From the NCBI GenBank assembly GCA_945877805.1, contig CAMCSM010000021.1, positions 1-36,081 on the forward strand: DNA of 36,081 bases. Direction: 5' to 3'. Below the pieces are notes generated by a model. The model searched no databases and was not told the DNA's origin. It worked only from the letters and a program-made list of their open reading frames with translations. The position numbers and the translations under genes were made by a program. This DNA is from Methylacidiphilum caldifontis (GTDB lineage Bacteria > Verrucomicrobiota > Verrucomicrobiia > Methylacidiphilales > CAMAQI01). Below, piece after piece: positions 25,598 through 32,848 of the stretch; positions within the stretch are counted from its first letter, which is position 1, and each line of letters starts with the position of its first letter.

Positions 25598-26563
25598 ATG
25601 AGTCAAATGGATCGAGTTCCCAAGTCTATTATTCCCGTGGTGACGGTAGGGGATTATTATTCCAAAAATGCTGAGACCCTTCACATGAAGCTAGTGGCTG
25701 GGGCCAGTGGATTAAAACGAAAGATTCGTGAGGGATCGGTCAATCGACCGGGATTAGGGCTCGTCGGTTTTTTCAGTAATTTTGCGTGGAAGCGGATTCA
25801 GGTGATTGGATGGGCGGAGACCTCTTATTTAAACTCATTGACCCCTAAAGAAAGTCGGAAGCGGGTTCGAGATTTATTTGCTCAAAAAATTCCAGGGATT
25901 GTTTTTACTCGAAATATCAAGCCGCCCGATCATGTATTGGAAGAGGCGGAGGCTTTTAATATCCCTGTTTTTAAGAGTTCGATGGCAACTTTGCGGTATT
26001 TAAATGCGGCGACGATTTGTATGGAGATCGATTTTGCGCCCCGAACCTCGGTTTATGGAAGCATGCTCGATATTCAGGGGATAGGGGTCGTGATTCGGGG
26101 GGATAGTGGGATTGGAAAAAGTGAGTGTGCCCTTTCCCTGTTGGCGAGGGGACATAGTTTAGTTGCGGATGATATCACTCGGGTTCGGATTTTTGAAGGG
26201 CGCGAGTTGATTGGATCTGCCTCCCCCGTGACTCGATCGCATATGGAGGTGCGGGGATTAGGGATCATCAATGCCGCTCATTTATTTGGAATTCGCAGCG
26301 TTCGTCTCGAAAAACGGATTGATTTAGTAGTGACCTTGGCGGAGTGGTCAAAGGTCGAGGAGGTCGAGCGAGTTGGTTTAGATGAAAGTCATTATGAAAT
26401 CTTGCAAATAAAAATTCCTCATGTCATCATCCCTGTAAGACCCGGTCGAGATCTTGCGACAATCGTTGAGATCGCGGCGATGGATCAAAAGCTGAAAACA
26501 ATGGGTCAGCATTCTGCATCTGAATTTAATGATCGACTCATTCAAACGATTTCAAATCAATAA
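25598..26563 (+). CDS. hprK: HPr kinase/phosphorylase
   Basis: 321 residues. Phosphorylates HPr on a serine and removes that phosphate, controlling carbon metabolism. The P-loop GDSGIGKS is at 168-175 and the family signature VRGLGIINAAHLFG lies in the C-terminal half. The N-terminal domain has the DRTase-like fold. The order hprK-ptsH-ptsI, with 12 and 17 bp gaps, places the whole relay in one operon. In Gram-negative bacteria without PTS sugar permeases this set often serves regulation only, and no permease is seen here. Confidence 0.94.
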   Translation: MSQMDRVPKSIIPVVTVGDYYSKNAETLHMKLVAGASGLKRKIREGSVNRPGLGLVGFFSNFAWKRIQVIGWAETSYLNSLTPKESRKRVRDLFAQKIPGIVFTRNIKPPDHVLEEAEAFNIPVFKSSMATLRYLNAATICMEIDFAPRTSVYGSMLDIQGIGVVIRGDSGIGKSECALSLLARGHSLVADDITRVRIFEGRELIGSASPVTRSHMEVRGLGIINAAHLFGIRSVRLEKRIDLVVTLAEWSKVEEVERVGLDESHYEILQIKIPHVIIPVRPGRDLATIVEIAAMDQKLKTMGQHSASEFNDRLIQTISNQ

Positions 26564-26575
26564 CGGAGTAATAGC

Positions 26576-26860
26576 ATGTCTGGAAAAGATGGAAAAATAG
26601 TAAAAGATTTGGTGGTTGCTAATAAATTAGGGATCCATGCCCGTCCAGCTGCGATGTTTGTCCGTGTAGCGAATCGATTTGCCTGTGAGGTTTGGGTAGA
26701 GAAAGATGGGGAAGAGGTCAATGGGAAGAGCATCATGGGGTTAATGCTTTTGGCCGCCGGTTGTGGCTCTCGTTTAAAGGTCACGGCCATCGGAGCGGAT
26801 GCGCCACAGGCCCTTAAAGAAATAGAAGAATTAATAGCTCGCAAATTTGACGAGGAATAG
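26576..26860 (+). CDS. ptsH: Phosphocarrier protein HPr
   Basis: 94 residues. The phosphorylated histidine is in NKLGIHARPAAM (H21) and the HprK target serine in GKSIMGLM (S52). Both residues are present, so both enzyme I and HprK should be able to act on it. The protein has about six extra N-terminal residues compared with short HPr forms. GGAG stands 7 nt before the ATG, so this internal gene uses a Shine-Dalgarno site. Confidence 0.95.
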   Translation: MSGKDGKIVKDLVVANKLGIHARPAAMFVRVANRFACEVWVEKDGEEVNGKSIMGLMLLAAGCGSRLKVTAIGADAPQALKEIEELIARKFDEE

Positions 26861-26877
26861 TGTAAAATCCCATCTTA

Positions 26878-28650
26878 ATGATGGAGGAGAATTCACAGAC
26901 ACTATTAAATGAAGTCCGGCTGGTTGGAGTTGCGGCTTCACCGGGCTGTGTTGTCGCTCCTGTGGTGGTTTTTTCCCAGGATAACAAAATTATTCGCCGG
27001 AGGAAAATTAAGCCGGAGGATATTTCTAATGAGATGGAGCTTTTCGAGCTGGCATTAGGAAAGACCCGCCAAGAAATTTTAGAAATTAAAGAGAAGCTGG
27101 AACAAGATCTTCCAGATCAAGACGCCGCAATTTTTGATGCTCATTTGTTAGTTTTAGAAGATCCGACGATTATTGAGGCGGTAAAAGCGCAATTAGAGGA
27201 AAAGTTGTTAGGGGTGGATTACATTTATCAGCAGACAACAAAATCATTTATTAAGCAACTTCGCCAAATTGAGGATGAGTTTTTAAGCGAGCGGGCGGCC
27301 GATATTCAAGATGTCAGCCGTCGTGTCTTGCGTCACTTACAGGGACGTTCCGGCCTTTCATTCCAGCTGGATGTTCCTTCGATCATTGTTGCGCATGATT
27401 TAACGCCGAGTGATACCGCTCAACTCGACCGGAAGATGGTTTTGGGTTTTGCGACTGAGGGGGGAAGCCGAACCTCTCATACCGCAATTATTGCGCGCTC
27501 ACTGGATATTCCGGCGGTCGTTAGTTTAAAGCAGGTGCTCAATCAGATCGAGTCAGGGATTGAGGTTCTGTTGGACGGACATGAAGGGCTTTTAATTCTA
27601 AATCCTTCGGAAGAAACCAAGCGGATTTCAGGTCAGATTGAAGGGAAACGATTAGAGGTCGATCAACGATTGACTTCCCTTCGTGAGGTCTCCGCAACGA
27701 CGACCGATCTTAAGAAAATTACCGTTTCGGCGAATGTTGGATTAGAGGCCGATATCTCGATGATGCTCGAGAATGGGGCTGAGGGAGTGGGGCTTTATCG
27801 TACGGAGTTTTTGTACATTAATCGGGAAGGATTTCCGAGCGAAGAGGAGCAGTATCAAAACTATCGGGCGGTTGCTCATGCGGCGCTTCCGCATTCGGTG
27901 ATTATCCGGACTTTGGATTTAGGGGGAGATAAGTTTATCTCGAATAATGAAGGATTTATTCCAGAACAAAACCCGTTTTTAGGATGGCGCGGAATCCGTT
28001 TTTGTTTAACCGAAAGAGCGATTTTTAAGATACAACTCCGAGCAATCTGTCGTGCGAGTATTGAAGGGAATGTTAAAATTATGTTTCCGATGGTCTCCGA
28101 TATCGATGAGTATCGTCGCGCCCGATCGCTCCTTGAAGAGGTGAAACGGGAGCTGAGGGCGGAGGGAGTTCCGATTGCGGATAAGATGGAGGTGGGGGTG
28201 ATGATTGAGGTTCCCTCGGCAGCGATGACGGCAGAGTTTTATGCTCGCGAGGCTAATTTTTTAAGTATTGGGACGAATGATTTAATTCAGTACACCTTGG
28301 CGGTTGATCGAGTCAATGAGAAGGTTGCCTATCTTTATCAGCCGACCCATCCCTCGATTTTGCGGCTTATTAAGCAAGTGGTGGATGCGGGGCATCGGCA
28401 TAATATCTGGGTCGGTGTTTGCGGAGAGATGGCCTCCGATATTATTTTAACCCCGCTGCTATTAGGATTAGGGGTCGATGAATTAAGTTTAGGGGCTGGA
28501 AATATCCCTCGTATTAAAAAAGCGATTCAAACCTTGAGCTTTGAAGAGACTCAGAAAATGGTCGCTGAATGGATGGATTGGTATAAGGCCGAGGATATCA
28601 TGCGCGCATTGGAGGACTATGCGAAGAGTCTTTATCCTGATCTACTTTAA
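26878..28650 (+). CDS. ptsI: Phosphoenolpyruvate-protein phosphotransferase (enzyme I)
   Basis: 590 residues. Transfers phosphate from PEP to HPr. The swivelling phosphohistidine domain has GGSRTSHTAIIARS (H201). The TIM-barrel PEP domain has GVGLYRTEFLYI, MIEVPSAA, SIGTNDLIQYTLAVDR and the catalytic cysteine in GVCGEMASD. All active-site motifs are intact. A second ATG directly follows the first. With hprK and ptsH upstream it completes the relay, but no EIIA or permease gene is nearby. Confidence 0.95.
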   Translation: MMEENSQTLLNEVRLVGVAASPGCVVAPVVVFSQDNKIIRRRKIKPEDISNEMELFELALGKTRQEILEIKEKLEQDLPDQDAAIFDAHLLVLEDPTIIEAVKAQLEEKLLGVDYIYQQTTKSFIKQLRQIEDEFLSERAADIQDVSRRVLRHLQGRSGLSFQLDVPSIIVAHDLTPSDTAQLDRKMVLGFATEGGSRTSHTAIIARSLDIPAVVSLKQVLNQIESGIEVLLDGHEGLLILNPSEETKRISGQIEGKRLEVDQRLTSLREVSATTTDLKKITVSANVGLEADISMMLENGAEGVGLYRTEFLYINREGFPSEEEQYQNYRAVAHAALPHSVIIRTLDLGGDKFISNNEGFIPEQNPFLGWRGIRFCLTERAIFKIQLRAICRASIEGNVKIMFPMVSDIDEYRRARSLLEEVKRELRAEGVPIADKMEVGVMIEVPSAAMTAEFYAREANFLSIGTNDLIQYTLAVDRVNEKVAYLYQPTHPSILRLIKQVVDAGHRHNIWVGVCGEMASDIILTPLLLGLGVDELSLGAGNIPRIKKAIQTLSFEETQKMVAEWMDWYKAEDIMRALEDYAKSLYPDLL

Positions 28651-28697
28651 GGAATTGACTCTGATCAAATTTTCTCTCTAGTGAAGGCTCATTTCAT

Positions 28698-29444
28698 ATG
28701 CAAGTACTCGTATTAGCTGCCGGTTACGCCACACGACTTTATCCTTTGACCTTGAATCAACCCAAGCCGCTTTTGGAGATTGCGGGACGTCCCATGTTAG
28801 AGCACGTCGTCGAAAAAATTGGAACGATCGCAGGGATTCAAGATTGGTTGATCGTCACAAATCAAAAATTTTCAGGGCATTTTGAGCGCTGGGTTCAAGA
28901 CTATCAAAAGAAGTCGCCAGAGTTTCAATGTCAGGTCTTTAATGATCGGTCGACGAGCGACGCTGATAAGTTGGGAGCGATCGGCGATATTCACTTTGTT
29001 CTTTCTCAAGGGGCAGTGAAGGAGGGGTTGATCGTCATTGCGGGTGATAATTTATTTAGCGATTCCTTGGCTGACTTTGGTCGTTATTGTCAAGAGGTAG
29101 AGGGGCCAGTTTTGGGGGTTTATGATATCGGAAGTTTAGAGGAAATTAAGAAATACAGTAGCATTGAGGTCGATTCTCAGGGGAAAATCCTCTCGTTCGA
29201 GGAAAAGCCAACCGATCCTAAAAGCACTCTTTTGGGAATTGCGCTGTACTACTATCCTCCAGCCATTGTAGAGCTGTTGAAGGTTTATATTGAAGAAGGG
29301 AATAATCCCGATCAACCAGGGCGTTTCATCCAATGGCTATACCCTCGGGTTCCGGTCCATACTTGGAAAGTTCCTGGGCTTTGGTACGATATCGGAAGTA
29401 AAGAGACTCTTGAAGAGGCCGACCGTATTTTCAGAGCTCAATAA
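28698..29444 (+). CDS. Sugar-phosphate nucleotidyltransferase
   Basis: 248 residues. The NTP-transferase signature LAAGYATRLYPLTLNQPKPL is at 6-25, followed by the sugar-recognition region VIAGDNLFSD and FEEKPTDP. Length and motifs resemble RmlA- or mannose-1-phosphate guanylyltransferase-type domains; the base and sugar are not decided by the sequence. An upstream TTGACT, 16-nt spacer and TCTAGT could be a promoter with a short leader. Confidence 0.85.
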   Translation: MQVLVLAAGYATRLYPLTLNQPKPLLEIAGRPMLEHVVEKIGTIAGIQDWLIVTNQKFSGHFERWVQDYQKKSPEFQCQVFNDRSTSDADKLGAIGDIHFVLSQGAVKEGLIVIAGDNLFSDSLADFGRYCQEVEGPVLGVYDIGSLEEIKKYSSIEVDSQGKILSFEEKPTDPKSTLLGIALYYYPPAIVELLKVYIEEGNNPDQPGRFIQWLYPRVPVHTWKVPGLWYDIGSKETLEEADRIFRAQ

Positions 29445-29473
29445 TTCGTAGTGGATATTTGGGCGGTTTTTTG

Positions 29474-29485
29474 GATAATGAACCA
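29474..29485 (+). promoter_or_regulatory. Possible -10 element before ispE
   Basis: GATAAT (29474-29479) ends 6 nt before the ATG at 29486, in the same position as the other leaderless candidates. The -35 (GTGGAT) is poor. Confidence 0.3.
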
Positions 29486-30334
29486 ATGAGTCAGACTTGG
29501 ACCCATTCTGCCCCTGCAAAGATTAATTTAAATCTCAGAATTTTGGGAAAGCGTCCTGATGGTTTCCATGAATTGGAGACTCTCATGGTGCCGATTACAT
29601 TGGCAGATGAGTTGAGATTTCAAAAAAAAGAGCGTGGCATTGCAATGACTTGTTCCGATCCCACGCTGCCTTGTGATGCGACGAATTTAGTTTGGAAAGC
29701 CGCCGCGCTATTTTTTCAAACCTATGCGGTGGAGGGAGGGATTGAGATTCATCTGGAAAAGAAAACTCCTCATGGGGCGGGATTAGGGGGGGGAAGTAGT
29801 GATGCGGCAACGGTTTTACTGGCCCTACGAGAGATCTATCAAGTCGATGTGAGTGACGAGGGGCTCGCCGCGCTCGCCTCACAAATGGGGAGCGATATCC
29901 CCTTTTTTATCTACCAGCGCGCCGCTTGGTGTCGGGGGCGCGGAGAGATCATCGAGCCGATCGACCTCCCTTTTTCTTATCAAGGGATCTTAGTTCATCC
30001 TGGTTTTGCGGTTCCGACCCCTTGGGCCTATCAGACTTATGCCCAGAATCCCTCGAGGGGAGAGTCGGGAGCCGATCTTGGATGGGTGACTCTTCAAAAT
30101 GATTTAGAGCCGGCGGTCTTTTTAAAATATGCCTGGATTCCGACGGTGAAGCGGTGGTTTCAGGAACAACCAGAAGTTTTAGATTCGATGATGAGCGGAA
30201 GTGGCAGCGCCGTTTTCGCCCTGATCAAATTAGGGGAAAATCGCGAAGGAGTTTTCAATCGATTTCGCGCCGAATTTGGGGTCGATATTTTTTCAGTATT
30301 ATTTGAATTTATTGGAGAAACTAAAAAATCATGA
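29486..30334 (+). CDS. ispE: 4-diphosphocytidyl-2-C-methyl-D-erythritol kinase
   Basis: 282 residues. ATP-dependent GHMP kinase of the non-mevalonate (MEP) isoprenoid pathway. APAKINLNLRILGKRPDGFHELET carries the substrate-binding lysine (K12), and the GHMP phosphate loop PHGAGLGGGSSDAATV is at 95-110. The third motif MMSGSGSAVFAL is near the C-terminus. The frame is open to 29459, but MSQTWTHSAPAK is the natural start. The stop overlaps the kinase start as ATGA (30331-30334). Confidence 0.94.
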   Translation: MSQTWTHSAPAKINLNLRILGKRPDGFHELETLMVPITLADELRFQKKERGIAMTCSDPTLPCDATNLVWKAAALFFQTYAVEGGIEIHLEKKTPHGAGLGGGSSDAATVLLALREIYQVDVSDEGLAALASQMGSDIPFFIYQRAAWCRGRGEIIEPIDLPFSYQGILVHPGFAVPTPWAYQTYAQNPSRGESGADLGWVTLQNDLEPAVFLKYAWIPTVKRWFQEQPEVLDSMMSGSGSAVFALIKLGENREGVFNRFRAEFGVDIFSVLFEFIGETKKS

Positions 30335-31563
30335 AATCAGATCCTTTACAGCAGTTAAGCGTGAGCGAGGTCGTTCCAGGATTTGAATTAGGGCATTATC
30401 AAATCATCGGAAAAATTTCTGCAGGGGGAATGGGGATTGTATTTAGAGCCCATGAGCCGACCTTAAACCGCGAGGTGGCGCTTAAGGTGTTATCGGAGAA
30501 GTACTCGGCCGATCTCAATTATGTGAATAGTTTTCAGGAAGAGGCGCAACTCGTCGCCTCTCTTCGTCATCCGAATATTATTCCGATCTATTTTATTGGG
30601 CAGATTGGATCGGTGGTGTTTTATAGCATGGCCTATATTTCGAATCCAAGTTTGGATGTTTGGATTCATGAGGGGCGTCGCTTTGATTTGAGAGAGGTGA
30701 AATGGTTTCTATCGCAAGCCTGCTCCGCTTTAGATTGTGCGACACAAGCGGGATTGATTCATTTAGATATTAAGCCTTCTAATTTTCTCGTCGATGATGC
30801 AGGGGTTTTGTATTTGACTGATTTTGGGCTCGCAAAGCTTATGGGGGGGACGAAGGGGGTGATTGATGATCAATTGTATGGGACTCCCTACTACGTGGCT
30901 CCTGAAAGAGTTCTTCGAAAATCGCTCGATCATCGCACGGATATTTACTCGTTGGGTGCGACTTTATTTCATTTAGTCGTGGGCGAGGCTCCCTTTGATT
31001 CTGAAAATATTCAGGATATTGTGGATGCCCAATTAAACGATCCCTTTCCAGAGGAAAAGGCCATTGCAAAGGGGATCCCGCAACCGCTTATCGATTTAAT
31101 GAGAAAGATGATGGAGAAAGATCCGGTACGACGGTTTCAATCCTATTCGGAGATTTTAAATGTGTTGCAAGGTCTCGACTATTTTCATTATAAGCCGATC
31201 CTCCCTCTTTCCGTTAAGGAGATGGAGTATTTAGTTCCGAATGCCTATTCCGATATTCAAAGAATTCCTAATCTACTTTGGGTGGCAGAAAAGCAAGGAA
31301 AGGAGTGGGCGACGTGGTTGAATGCCGATCCTCAGCATCCTTGGCAAACAGGGCTGGCCCCTTTAGCAGAGATGATGAATTCTTTGGGAGAAACCTTAAA
31401 CTTGGGGAAGCTTCAAGGCTTTATGTTGCAAGGGGGCGAGGTTCAGGCGATAGGATGTCAGAGGAATAAAAAATCTTTTGTGATGATGACTCAAGTCGCT
31501 GGGGGAGATGTTTATCAGACCCAGTCTCAATTAACCGAAATTTTAAATCGAGGGAACTCATGA
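30331..31563 (+). CDS. Ser/Thr protein kinase with roadblock-like C-terminal domain
   Basis: 410 residues, no membrane segment. Kinase domain (about 23-285): glycine loop GKISAGGMGIV (27-37), VALK lysine (K52), HLDIKPSN (144-151) with catalytic D146 but Leu in place of the Arg of HRD, DFG (164-166) and APE (190-192). The rest (about 290-410), with helix AEMMNSLGETLN followed by strands LQGFMLQGGE, VQAIGCQRNK and SFVMMTQVAGG and a final helix, looks like a short roadblock/LC7-type fold; this is my inference from secondary structure. The stop overlaps the next gene's ATG. Loss of the HRD arginine suggests activity not regulated by activation-loop phosphorylation. Confidence 0.82.
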   Translation: MKSDPLQQLSVSEVVPGFELGHYQIIGKISAGGMGIVFRAHEPTLNREVALKVLSEKYSADLNYVNSFQEEAQLVASLRHPNIIPIYFIGQIGSVVFYSMAYISNPSLDVWIHEGRRFDLREVKWFLSQACSALDCATQAGLIHLDIKPSNFLVDDAGVLYLTDFGLAKLMGGTKGVIDDQLYGTPYYVAPERVLRKSLDHRTDIYSLGATLFHLVVGEAPFDSENIQDIVDAQLNDPFPEEKAIAKGIPQPLIDLMRKMMEKDPVRRFQSYSEILNVLQGLDYFHYKPILPLSVKEMEYLVPNAYSDIQRIPNLLWVAEKQGKEWATWLNADPQHPWQTGLAPLAEMMNSLGETLNLGKLQGFMLQGGEVQAIGCQRNKKSFVMMTQVAGGDVYQTQSQLTEILNRGNS

Positions 31564-32228
31564 CTCAACAGCAAGAGGTTGATTCGATCGTGAAAATAAT
31601 TGCCGATAATGCGGCGGTTCGCGCGGCCTTTGTGGTTTCTGCTTTTGGTAAAGTCGAGAGTTGTTATCCTCAAGAAAATGAAAAACAGGTGGGACAATGG
31701 GCGGTTGTTTTAATCCCTTATCTCAAAATTTTTTCTCAGTTGAAAGAGTTTCGATTTTCAACGTTACAATATCGGGAGGGGGATTTATGGATCGGAGAGC
31801 TTTATGACTCTCAGTTTTTGATCCTTCTTTTAAAAACTCCAGAAAATCCAACGGTATTTTATCAAAACATTGTTTTTAATATCCAAAAACTTCACTTGAA
31901 GCCGTCAACCGACGAAGAGACAAATCTCGAGGGGTCGATGCAACGTCTTTTACATCAGGCCACGGATCAAATAAAAGTTCGGAGTCGCTTAGACAACGAT
32001 TTTTTTGGGGCGCTTCGAAAAAGTGCCTTTATATATTTTGGCGCTTTAGGGGAGGAATGGGTCGATCAAGGCCTTGAGAGTCTATGGATCACGCTTCCGA
32101 TTCGACAGAGACAGCCGATGGAAGCGATCATCGTGGCAGTGACGAAACGAATCTCCCATCCTCTTAAGCGTGCGGCTTTCAAGCGCGATGCGGCCGATTT
32201 AATTAAAAAGTTTTTAGATTCAAATTAA
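31560..32228 (+). CDS. Predicted roadblock/LC7-like partner of the kinase
   Basis: 222 residues, no signal or membrane segment, no known family recognised by eye. The first 125 residues follow the alpha-beta-beta-alpha-beta-beta-beta-alpha order of roadblock/LC7 proteins (MglB-like): helix EVDSIVKIIADNAA, strands RAAFVVSAFG and KVESCYP, a long helix, strands RFSTLQYREG, DLWIGELYDS and QFLILLLK, then a helix. A second, mostly helical domain (about 130-222) follows. It is coupled to the kinase gene by an ATGA overlap. Its stop overlaps the stop of the convergent methyltransferase gene by 3 bp. Confidence 0.6.
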   Translation: MTQQQEVDSIVKIIADNAAVRAAFVVSAFGKVESCYPQENEKQVGQWAVVLIPYLKIFSQLKEFRFSTLQYREGDLWIGELYDSQFLILLLKTPENPTVFYQNIVFNIQKLHLKPSTDEETNLEGSMQRLLHQATDQIKVRSRLDNDFFGALRKSAFIYFGALGEEWVDQGLESLWITLPIRQRQPMEAIIVAVTKRISHPLKRAAFKRDAADLIKKFLDSN

Positions 32229-32848
32229 GAGTTGCCTCGCTCTAAAGCGGTCACGCGATGGGCGAGATGGTGATTCACATAGCAGTGACTTCCACAGGAG
32301 ATGAACTCCGATTGGCGAAAGAGTCGTTGATAGTCTTTAACCGATCTCGGGAGCATCCCTTGGGTATCCCCCTCAAGGGGTTCGGTGCTTGAGTAGGCCT
32401 CTAAAAAGGCAACTCCCTGAAGATGTTTCATGATCCATTGAAGGCCTTGCTTCAGGTCAGGCTCTGGAATGTAGTAAAGAAGATCGCTGCAGATGATTAA
32501 ATCGTACGATTTATCGAGCGGAAGTTTTTTCAATTCAGTGAATTGCCCTTGAATCAGATTTCGTTGTTTGCCAAATTTTTTAATGACATAGGGGCTCGGA
32601 TCCAATCCGGTGTAGTGAATCGATCGATTCAATTTTTTAAGAATCGGCTGCCATTGCCCTTCGCCACAGCCGATATCAAGAACGGAGCAGACGGGTCGAT
32701 CGAGATAATATTCGGCAATCGAGAGCGCGAGCCTCGCCTTTCGCCTCGTCGCGGCGAGAGTGCTGACCCTTTGAGATTTATGGTGGTACCAGCGGTTGAA
32801 GTAGTTTTGATCGAAAGAGTTCAAGTGTTGCACGCTCGATCTTGGCAA
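32225..32848 (-). CDS. Class I SAM-dependent methyltransferase
   Basis: 207 residues. SAM-binding motif I VLDIGCGEGQW (about 56-66), the acidic end of beta-2 YTGLDPSP and motif IV LIICSDLLYYI identify a Rossmann methyltransferase. The C-terminus has a HCYVNHHLAHRV segment. The substrate is unknown. The first start in frame is TTG at 32848; a GTG five codons in is an alternative and neither has a Shine-Dalgarno site. It is convergent with the roadblock-like gene, sharing the bases TTAA for both stops. Confidence 0.82.
   Translation of the reverse strand: MPRSSVQHLNSFDQNYFNRWYHHKSQRVSTLAATRRKARLALSIAEYYLDRPVCSVLDIGCGEGQWQPILKKLNRSIHYTGLDPSPYVIKKFGKQRNLIQGQFTELKKLPLDKSYDLIICSDLLYYIPEPDLKQGLQWIMKHLQGVAFLEAYSSTEPLEGDTQGMLPRSVKDYQRLFRQSEFISCGSHCYVNHHLAHRVTALERGNS

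Follow-up and report, generated by a model that had tools for sequence, protein, structure and literature searches.

A kinase with a roadblock-fold tail beside a roadblock-fold partner in Methylacidiphilum caldifontis: a possible roadblock pair with a kinase in place of a PATAN-like domain

We analysed a 36,081-nucleotide stretch of Methylacidiphilum caldifontis DNA (hereafter the window; assembly GCA_945877805.1, contig CAMCSM010000021.1, positions 1 to 36,081 of the forward strand), which carries two adjoining genes: a kinase gene encoding a Ser/Thr kinase domain and a C-terminal roadblock-fold domain (30331..31563, + strand; open reading frame of 410 amino acids), and a partner gene (31560..32228, + strand; open reading frame of 222 amino acids). 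We lean, by a small measure, towards the view that the pair is a roadblock heterodimer that was once tied to an MglA/PATAN circuit and now carries a kinase. In sister families the partner adjoins a different protein, here called X, which shows homology to the kinase tail in its back half and is weakly DUF4388/PATAN-like (PF14332) in its front half. The comparison covers the window genome (G000; 96% complete) and the other two genomes of its genus examined (G001, 95%; G002, 87%), all of them drafts, together with more distant relatives.

The kinase and partner genes lie where the first-pass annotation of this DNA had placed them and overlap, as it had reported, by 4 bp, through a stop/start ATGA at 31560..31563 (+). 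The kinase tail and the partner were modelled with AlphaFold2. Of the kinase, residues 285–410 were folded, and within them residues 304–408 (31240..31554, +) adopt the helix (H) and strand (E) order H-E-E-H-E-E-E-H; residues 3–113 of the partner (31566..31898, +) show the same order and are followed by five helices at residues 125–221 (31932..32222, +). Against the PDB, Foldseek placed MglC first for the kinase tail (E 1.5e-4), followed by MglB and Ragulator subunits, and MglB first for the partner (E 1.8e-5). In fold comparison by VIA, for which a best Z of 7–8 is quoted as typical of models with no clear match, the kinase tail reached Z 12.8 (110 aligned residues, root-mean-square deviation (rmsd) 3.0) and the partner Z 11.5 (117 aligned, rmsd 3.4), the last entries for the partner being profilins, a different fold family, with Z 8.4. 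The mean predicted local distance difference test (pLDDT) value is 69 for the kinase tail, with a predicted template modelling (pTM) score of 0.62, residues 1–19 of the piece falling below 50 and later blocks at 62–85; for the partner it is 74, with a pTM of 0.55 and two stretches below 50. By element order and by match to solved structures, both the kinase tail and the partner N-terminus thus probably have the roadblock/LC7 fold, and the reading of the first-pass annotation, which had proposed from the letters a short roadblock-like segment in the kinase, the full roadblock order in the partner and a helical domain behind it, is borne out by these models rather than overturned by the lack of such a fold. 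The five-helix domain is present in the rows of partner alignment A2 and was modelled with pLDDT blocks of 53–93, mostly at least 75; its fold was not placed, and the VIA comparison barely covers it.

Relatives of the partner were found in 15 of 60 genomes, its own included, by a single-sequence search, and a partner profile run over a sample of 286 genomes of the class matched 16, newly adding G006 and, with the roadblock part alone, G280. The full partner occurs in the three genus genomes and, within the same order, in families f2 (two genomes), f5 (one) and f9 (ten), and it is always paired. Specifically, it stands with a kinase in 3/3 genus genomes, kinase orthologues being present in both G001 and G002, and with X in the 13 others. 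X (about 230 amino acids) is the gene directly upstream of the partner in 13/13 loci outside the genus, where there is no kinase. Its front half gave a weak DUF4388/PATAN match in seven of the eight copies tested (E 0.0004–0.054), while its back half aligned with the kinase tail in hhalign at E 2.6e-5 (probability 75%, 81 columns); the kinase-tail profile gave E 0.13 and 0.16 against the MglB and MglA profiles. Over the 286 genomes of the class the X profile matched 28, 12 of them strongly, and in G000 and G002 it matched the kinase tail only (E 2.3e-4 and 2.1e-4). The kinase resembles X in having a homologous roadblock half that adjoins the partner gene, and differs from it at the N-terminus, where a kinase domain stands instead of a DUF4388/PATAN-like domain. 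The partner and X profiles show no homology to each other (E 0.14); a weak collinear alignment of the tail/X profile with the partner (E 0.036, probability 1.4%) was not used as evidence.

Among the genomes searched, the kinase form was found only in the genus of the window. What is conserved across relatives, the check that the first-pass annotation had proposed, is the roadblock pair, and the lack of conservation that would have refuted its idea was not observed. Across the phylum, the kinase-tail profile matched 1/387 sampled genomes, the window's own; this sample evidently held no X-bearing genomes, which would be expected to match, and says nothing on those.

The position of the pair is shared as well. 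The gene order is ispE-kinase-partner in 3/3 genus genomes, in G002 across two contig ends, and ispE-X-partner in 3/3 f2/f5 loci. The anchor, ispE (29459..30334, +; GHMP kinase match; loci L017, L028, L029, L046 and L050), itself overlaps the kinase gene through a second ATGA at 30331–30334. Because of the shared synteny and the homology of the tail to X, the simplest account is an in-place replacement of the front domain within an existing pair; most likely the kinase domain replaced a PATAN-like domain in a roadblock pair, and the swap would have run from PATAN-like to kinase. The more distant family of G280, where the partner profile found the roadblock part only, may show the pair in a minimal form. 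Here a 178-amino-acid protein is homologous to the roadblock part of the partner (hhalign E 3.9e-9, probability 96%), and the 104-amino-acid gene upstream gives a weak match to the X/kinase-tail profile (E 7e-4, probability 26%). This small roadblock-like pair (L047:5737-6615), which adjoins an NtrC-like regulator, suggests that the system may at its core consist of two roadblock genes side by side. As a separate observation, ispE in L029:1116-1996 reads as two overlapping frames, a frame break or an assembly error in the draft.

The kinase domain was matched by PF00069 over residues 23–274 (30397..31152, +; hmmscan E 1.4e-44), and its motifs are intact (K52, H144-L-D146, N151, DFG164 and APE190). 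With this profile match and the catalytic Lys, Asp, Asn and DFG, it has the features of a Hanks-type Ser/Thr kinase and is predicted to be active. The PASTA kinase family NF033483 was not reached (229.6 vs 450 bits, with the match confined to residues 22–279). The non-RD catalytic loop that the first-pass annotation had singled out is present, as His-Leu-Asp at residues 144–146 (30760..30768, +, by motif alignment), and is better described as a subfamily trait: of 25 kinases in the alignment, 22 rows fit the loop pattern (3/25 were not matched by it), 20 of them reading HLD or HMD and the two most distant HRD. Since HLD/HMD prevails, the loop looks inherited, and the kinase belongs to an order-wide subfamily with a mostly non-RD loop. 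Within the window genome, the nearest kinase paralogue (L048:5946-7856; 636 amino acids, 50% identity) is a kinase-HDOD fusion. An origin of the domain by duplication of this paralogue is plausible; in the tree of the 25 kinases, whose deep forks stay open, the window clade (92/87) joins no other group. The ratio of nonsynonymous to synonymous substitution rates (dN/dS) of the kinase domain, kinase tail and partner is 0.08–0.12 between G000 and G002, and 0.07–0.23 between G000 and G001, the latter range being rough since dS > 1; these low ratios make both genes look maintained. Additionally, neither protein has an obvious membrane helix, because the top 19-residue Kyte-Doolittle scores are 1.58 for the kinase (residues 83–101, within the kinase domain) and 1.46 for the partner (residues 10–28).

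We then consider the GTPase circuit with which roadblock proteins are usually associated. An MglA profile built from relatives matched 31/60 genomes at E 1e-6, including 12 of the 13 X-bearing genomes; the exception, G039, is 79% complete. Within the genus one of three genomes was matched, G002, whose MglA-like protein is diverged and reads PGY and NKQE where its f2/f5/f9 relatives read PGQ and NKRD, and the profile found no match in G000 or G001. Matches to Robl_LC7 (PF03259) number 0/3 genus genomes against 12/13 partner-bearing genomes outside it, and matches to DUF4388 number none in G000 or G001 and one in G002, against 11 in G003 and 12 in G036. In the window genome, MglA, MglB and DUF4388 are thus all unmatched by the profiles used; the first-pass annotation had noted that no GTPase gene is adjacent, which is correct and now extends, for MglA-like genes, to the genome. 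A cognate MglA-type GTPase, as expected for an MglB-type regulator, was found in neither G000 nor G001, and in diverged form in G002.

At the mglA locus, G002 has the order glnD, mglA-like gene, gene for a 603-amino-acid protein and DUF4388-FHA gene (L102:1703-5093). In G000 (L106) and G001 (L107) the 603-amino-acid gene directly adjoins glnD, which in G000 is supported by PF08335, and the mglA-like and DUF4388-FHA genes are missing there; both stretches contain no N. Because the locus is closed up and N-free, an assembly gap there is improbable as the cause of the missing MglA in the window genome; an mglA copy could lie within the missing few per cent of this genome, elsewhere than the glnD locus. 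At both its front and its tail, the 603-amino-acid protein is homologous to the roadblock-ended protein encoded at the f2 mglA locus, and such a protein of 600–670 amino acids with a roadblock-like tail (L094:2780-4792, L106:3086-4894) is kept in all three genus genomes. An Arf-model search of G000 and G001 returned only long open reading frames (348 and 701–707 amino acids). A Roc-model search, which returned only long open reading frames below cut-off, also failed to recover the MglA genes known in the control genomes G003 and G036 and so says nothing on MglA.

These observations can be assembled as follows. The kinase and partner genes would encode the two subunits of a roadblock heterodimer, as suggested by the adjacency, within one gene cluster, of the kinase's roadblock domain and another roadblock protein. 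In other families of the order the first subunit would join a PATAN-like domain to a divergent roadblock domain, and the X-partner pair is most likely part of a polarity circuit built on an MglA-type GTPase. In the genus of the window a Ser/Thr kinase domain of the order-wide, mostly non-RD subfamily would stand in the PATAN-like position, with MglB not found and MglA apparently lost or diverged. The pair may then work as a soluble kinase complex in which the roadblock domain of the kinase pairs with that of the partner, the partner holding or positioning the kinase, while its helical domain could be a free arm for docking, to a target or to a site in the cell. Since a bactofilin gene lies beside five of the ten f9 pairs and most of these relatives carry MglA, an older role in cell polarity or the cytoskeleton is probable. 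Substrates of the kinase may lie in polarity or among the products of the hprK-ptsH-ptsI-nucleotidyltransferase-ispE cluster. The suggestion of the first-pass annotation that kinase and partner form a signalling module is compatible with this scheme, any given function for it being our interpretation.

A bolder version, which we entertain only tentatively, holds that the heterodimer is free of any GTPase: the MglA/MglB/PATAN circuit would have vanished in the genus, and one pair would have survived by exchanging PATAN for a kinase, becoming a kinase scaffold like MP1-p14 but of separate origin. The opposite possibility is that the pair continues to regulate a GTPase: the heterodimer would act on another GTPase of the cell, and the kinase would phosphorylate either that GTPase or the heterodimer. 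Bacterial roadblock proteins are best known in that role (PMC9481161, PMC4316618), and the retention of an MglA-like protein in G002 and of the 603-amino-acid homologue of a roadblock-ended mglA-locus protein throughout the genus would suit it. We nevertheless consider it unlikely, given the missing MglA matches in G000 and G001, the Arf hits confined to long open reading frames (GTPases of other kinds lie outside this evidence) and the altered PGY and NKQE motifs of G002.

Two further explanations concern the pair itself. The roadblock tail could homodimerise the kinase for its own regulation, dimerisation being a common mode of kinase regulation, and leave the partner mainly as a substrate or inhibitor. 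However, two roadblock genes adjoin also where no kinase is present, in 13/13 loci, and the possible minimal two-gene pair in the distant family suggests that pairing is older than the kinase; this explanation therefore seems improbable, even though MglB and MglC are described as forming homodimers (PMC7949163). Finally, the genes could be a decaying, functionless remnant of a lost polarity circuit, as the largely undetected MglA, MglB and DUF4388 proteins of the genus might invite one to think. The dN/dS of 0.07–0.23 and the conserved catalytic motifs and ATGA overlap already disfavour this, and we regard it as very improbable indeed.

Several points weigh against a roadblock heterodimer of MglA/PATAN ancestry. 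Pfam Robl_LC7 reaches neither window protein above its cut-off, and hhalign against the MglB of relatives shows no homology (E 0.27, 0.062 and 0.13), so that Robl_LC7 membership by sequence was rejected and the roadblock assignment draws its support from the predicted fold and from the homology with X; the fold models are of moderate confidence, on alignments of 16 (kinase tail) and 15 (partner) sequences. The profile search for roadblock/LC7 proposed in the first-pass annotation was thus unproductive: neither the kinase tail nor the partner is assigned to a Pfam family, the partner of locus L028 scores 12.7 with PF03259 (cut-off 23 bits), the partner alignment, used as a profile against solved structures, gave a sole, non-significant match to Drosophila Roadblock (3l7h, E 0.93), and in NCBIfam the window partner, two of its relatives and one X all lacked a family. 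The front half of X never exceeds the DUF4388 cut-off and in one of eight copies has no match at all, and the X profile misses the kinase tail of G001 at E 0.001. The link to MglA rests on co-occurrence, because the pair is not beside mglA in relatives; it is confounded by shared ancestry, and MglA was matched also in 18/44 genomes where no partner was found. Lastly, the genomes are drafts, and three are few for a lineage-wide claim.

MP1-p14 has a role in MEK/ERK signalling, and we know of no kinase fused to a roadblock domain in MP1-p14/Ragulator. MP1-p14 (LAMTOR3-LAMTOR2) and Ragulator resemble the window pair as roadblock heterodimers in a signalling platform (PMC5696360, available text) and in fold matches to both window models; they are eukaryotic, however, and the likeness is one of fold, not shown descent. 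Roadblock proteins in general are described as forming homo- and heterodimers in what is available of three reports (PMC7949163, PMC10329633, PMC5696360). Closest in fold are MglB and MglC of Myxococcus xanthus, the best matches of partner and kinase tail, respectively; they share a fold at < 9% identity and bind each other, as proposed here for the window pair (PMC7949163, accessible portion). Unlike that pair, they act together with MglA, for which the window genome gave no match, and the same portion describes no kinase domain or five-helix extension. RomY and MglB likewise are two different proteins forming a bipartite roadblock-containing GTPase-activating protein complex, which acts on MglA and for which the text at hand describes no kinase domain (PMC9481161). 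PATAN genes near mglA are already known (PMC4316618, as far as available) and recall X, with its PATAN-like domain (PF14332 below cut-off) and roadblock domain; X differs in joining both in one protein beside a second roadblock protein, and the window has a kinase instead.

Discussion of bacterial roadblock proteins has centred on the regulation of MglA. A 2014 survey found no coupled MglA for 328/749 MglB homologues, none of these orphans being then characterised (PMC4316618). In the open-access literature searched, no kinase-roadblock fusion in a genome devoid of detectable MglA was found, wider searches being judged by titles and the starts of abstracts, and no paper joined roadblock with DUF4388, Hanks-type kinase or Pkinase, or MglB and roadblock with a protein kinase domain. 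The present pair is divergent, lies below Pfam reach, is fused to a kinase and occurs in genomes where no MglA was found (G000 and G001). It thereby makes the role of roadblock dimers apart from a GTPase testable with two small, soluble-looking proteins, for which the X-bearing relatives are a matched control. If the GTPase-free version is true, roadblock pairs would be a general, re-pluggable signalling coupler and not a GTPase accessory.

The pair forms the end of a same-strand cluster at 25598–32228, assigned by Pfam as hprK, ptsH, ptsI, nucleotidyltransferase, ispE, kinase and partner; the company of hprK, ptsH and ptsI hints at a link of the kinase to phosphotransferase-system-type regulation. 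Downstream of the X-partner pair, bactofilin is the next gene in 5/10 f9 loci (L018, L019, L024, L026 and L027), and none was found in the examined stretches of the window, G001, f2 or f5, so bactofilin was rejected as a general part of the pair. In the f2/f5 loci the pair is followed by a protein of about 215 amino acids (L028:2282-2941, L046:5074-5709, L029:3391-4044), with tetratricopeptide repeats in the L028 copy and the other copies alike by eye.

Methylacidiphilum already provides a known case of a roadblock domain fused to an input domain: HGbRL of M. infernorum is a globin-roadblock protein of a verrucomicrobial methanotroph, for which an origin by duplication and fusion was proposed (PMC4476040, available part). 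Like the window kinase, it has its input domain N-terminal to the roadblock domain; this domain is a globin rather than a kinase, and the operon neighbour reported in that part of the source is an S-adenosylmethionine (SAM)-dependent methyltransferase, where the window kinase has another roadblock protein as its neighbour. The gene that follows the partner in the window, on the opposite strand at 32225–32848, also encodes a SAM-dependent methyltransferase, and its presence beside both systems may be coincidence.

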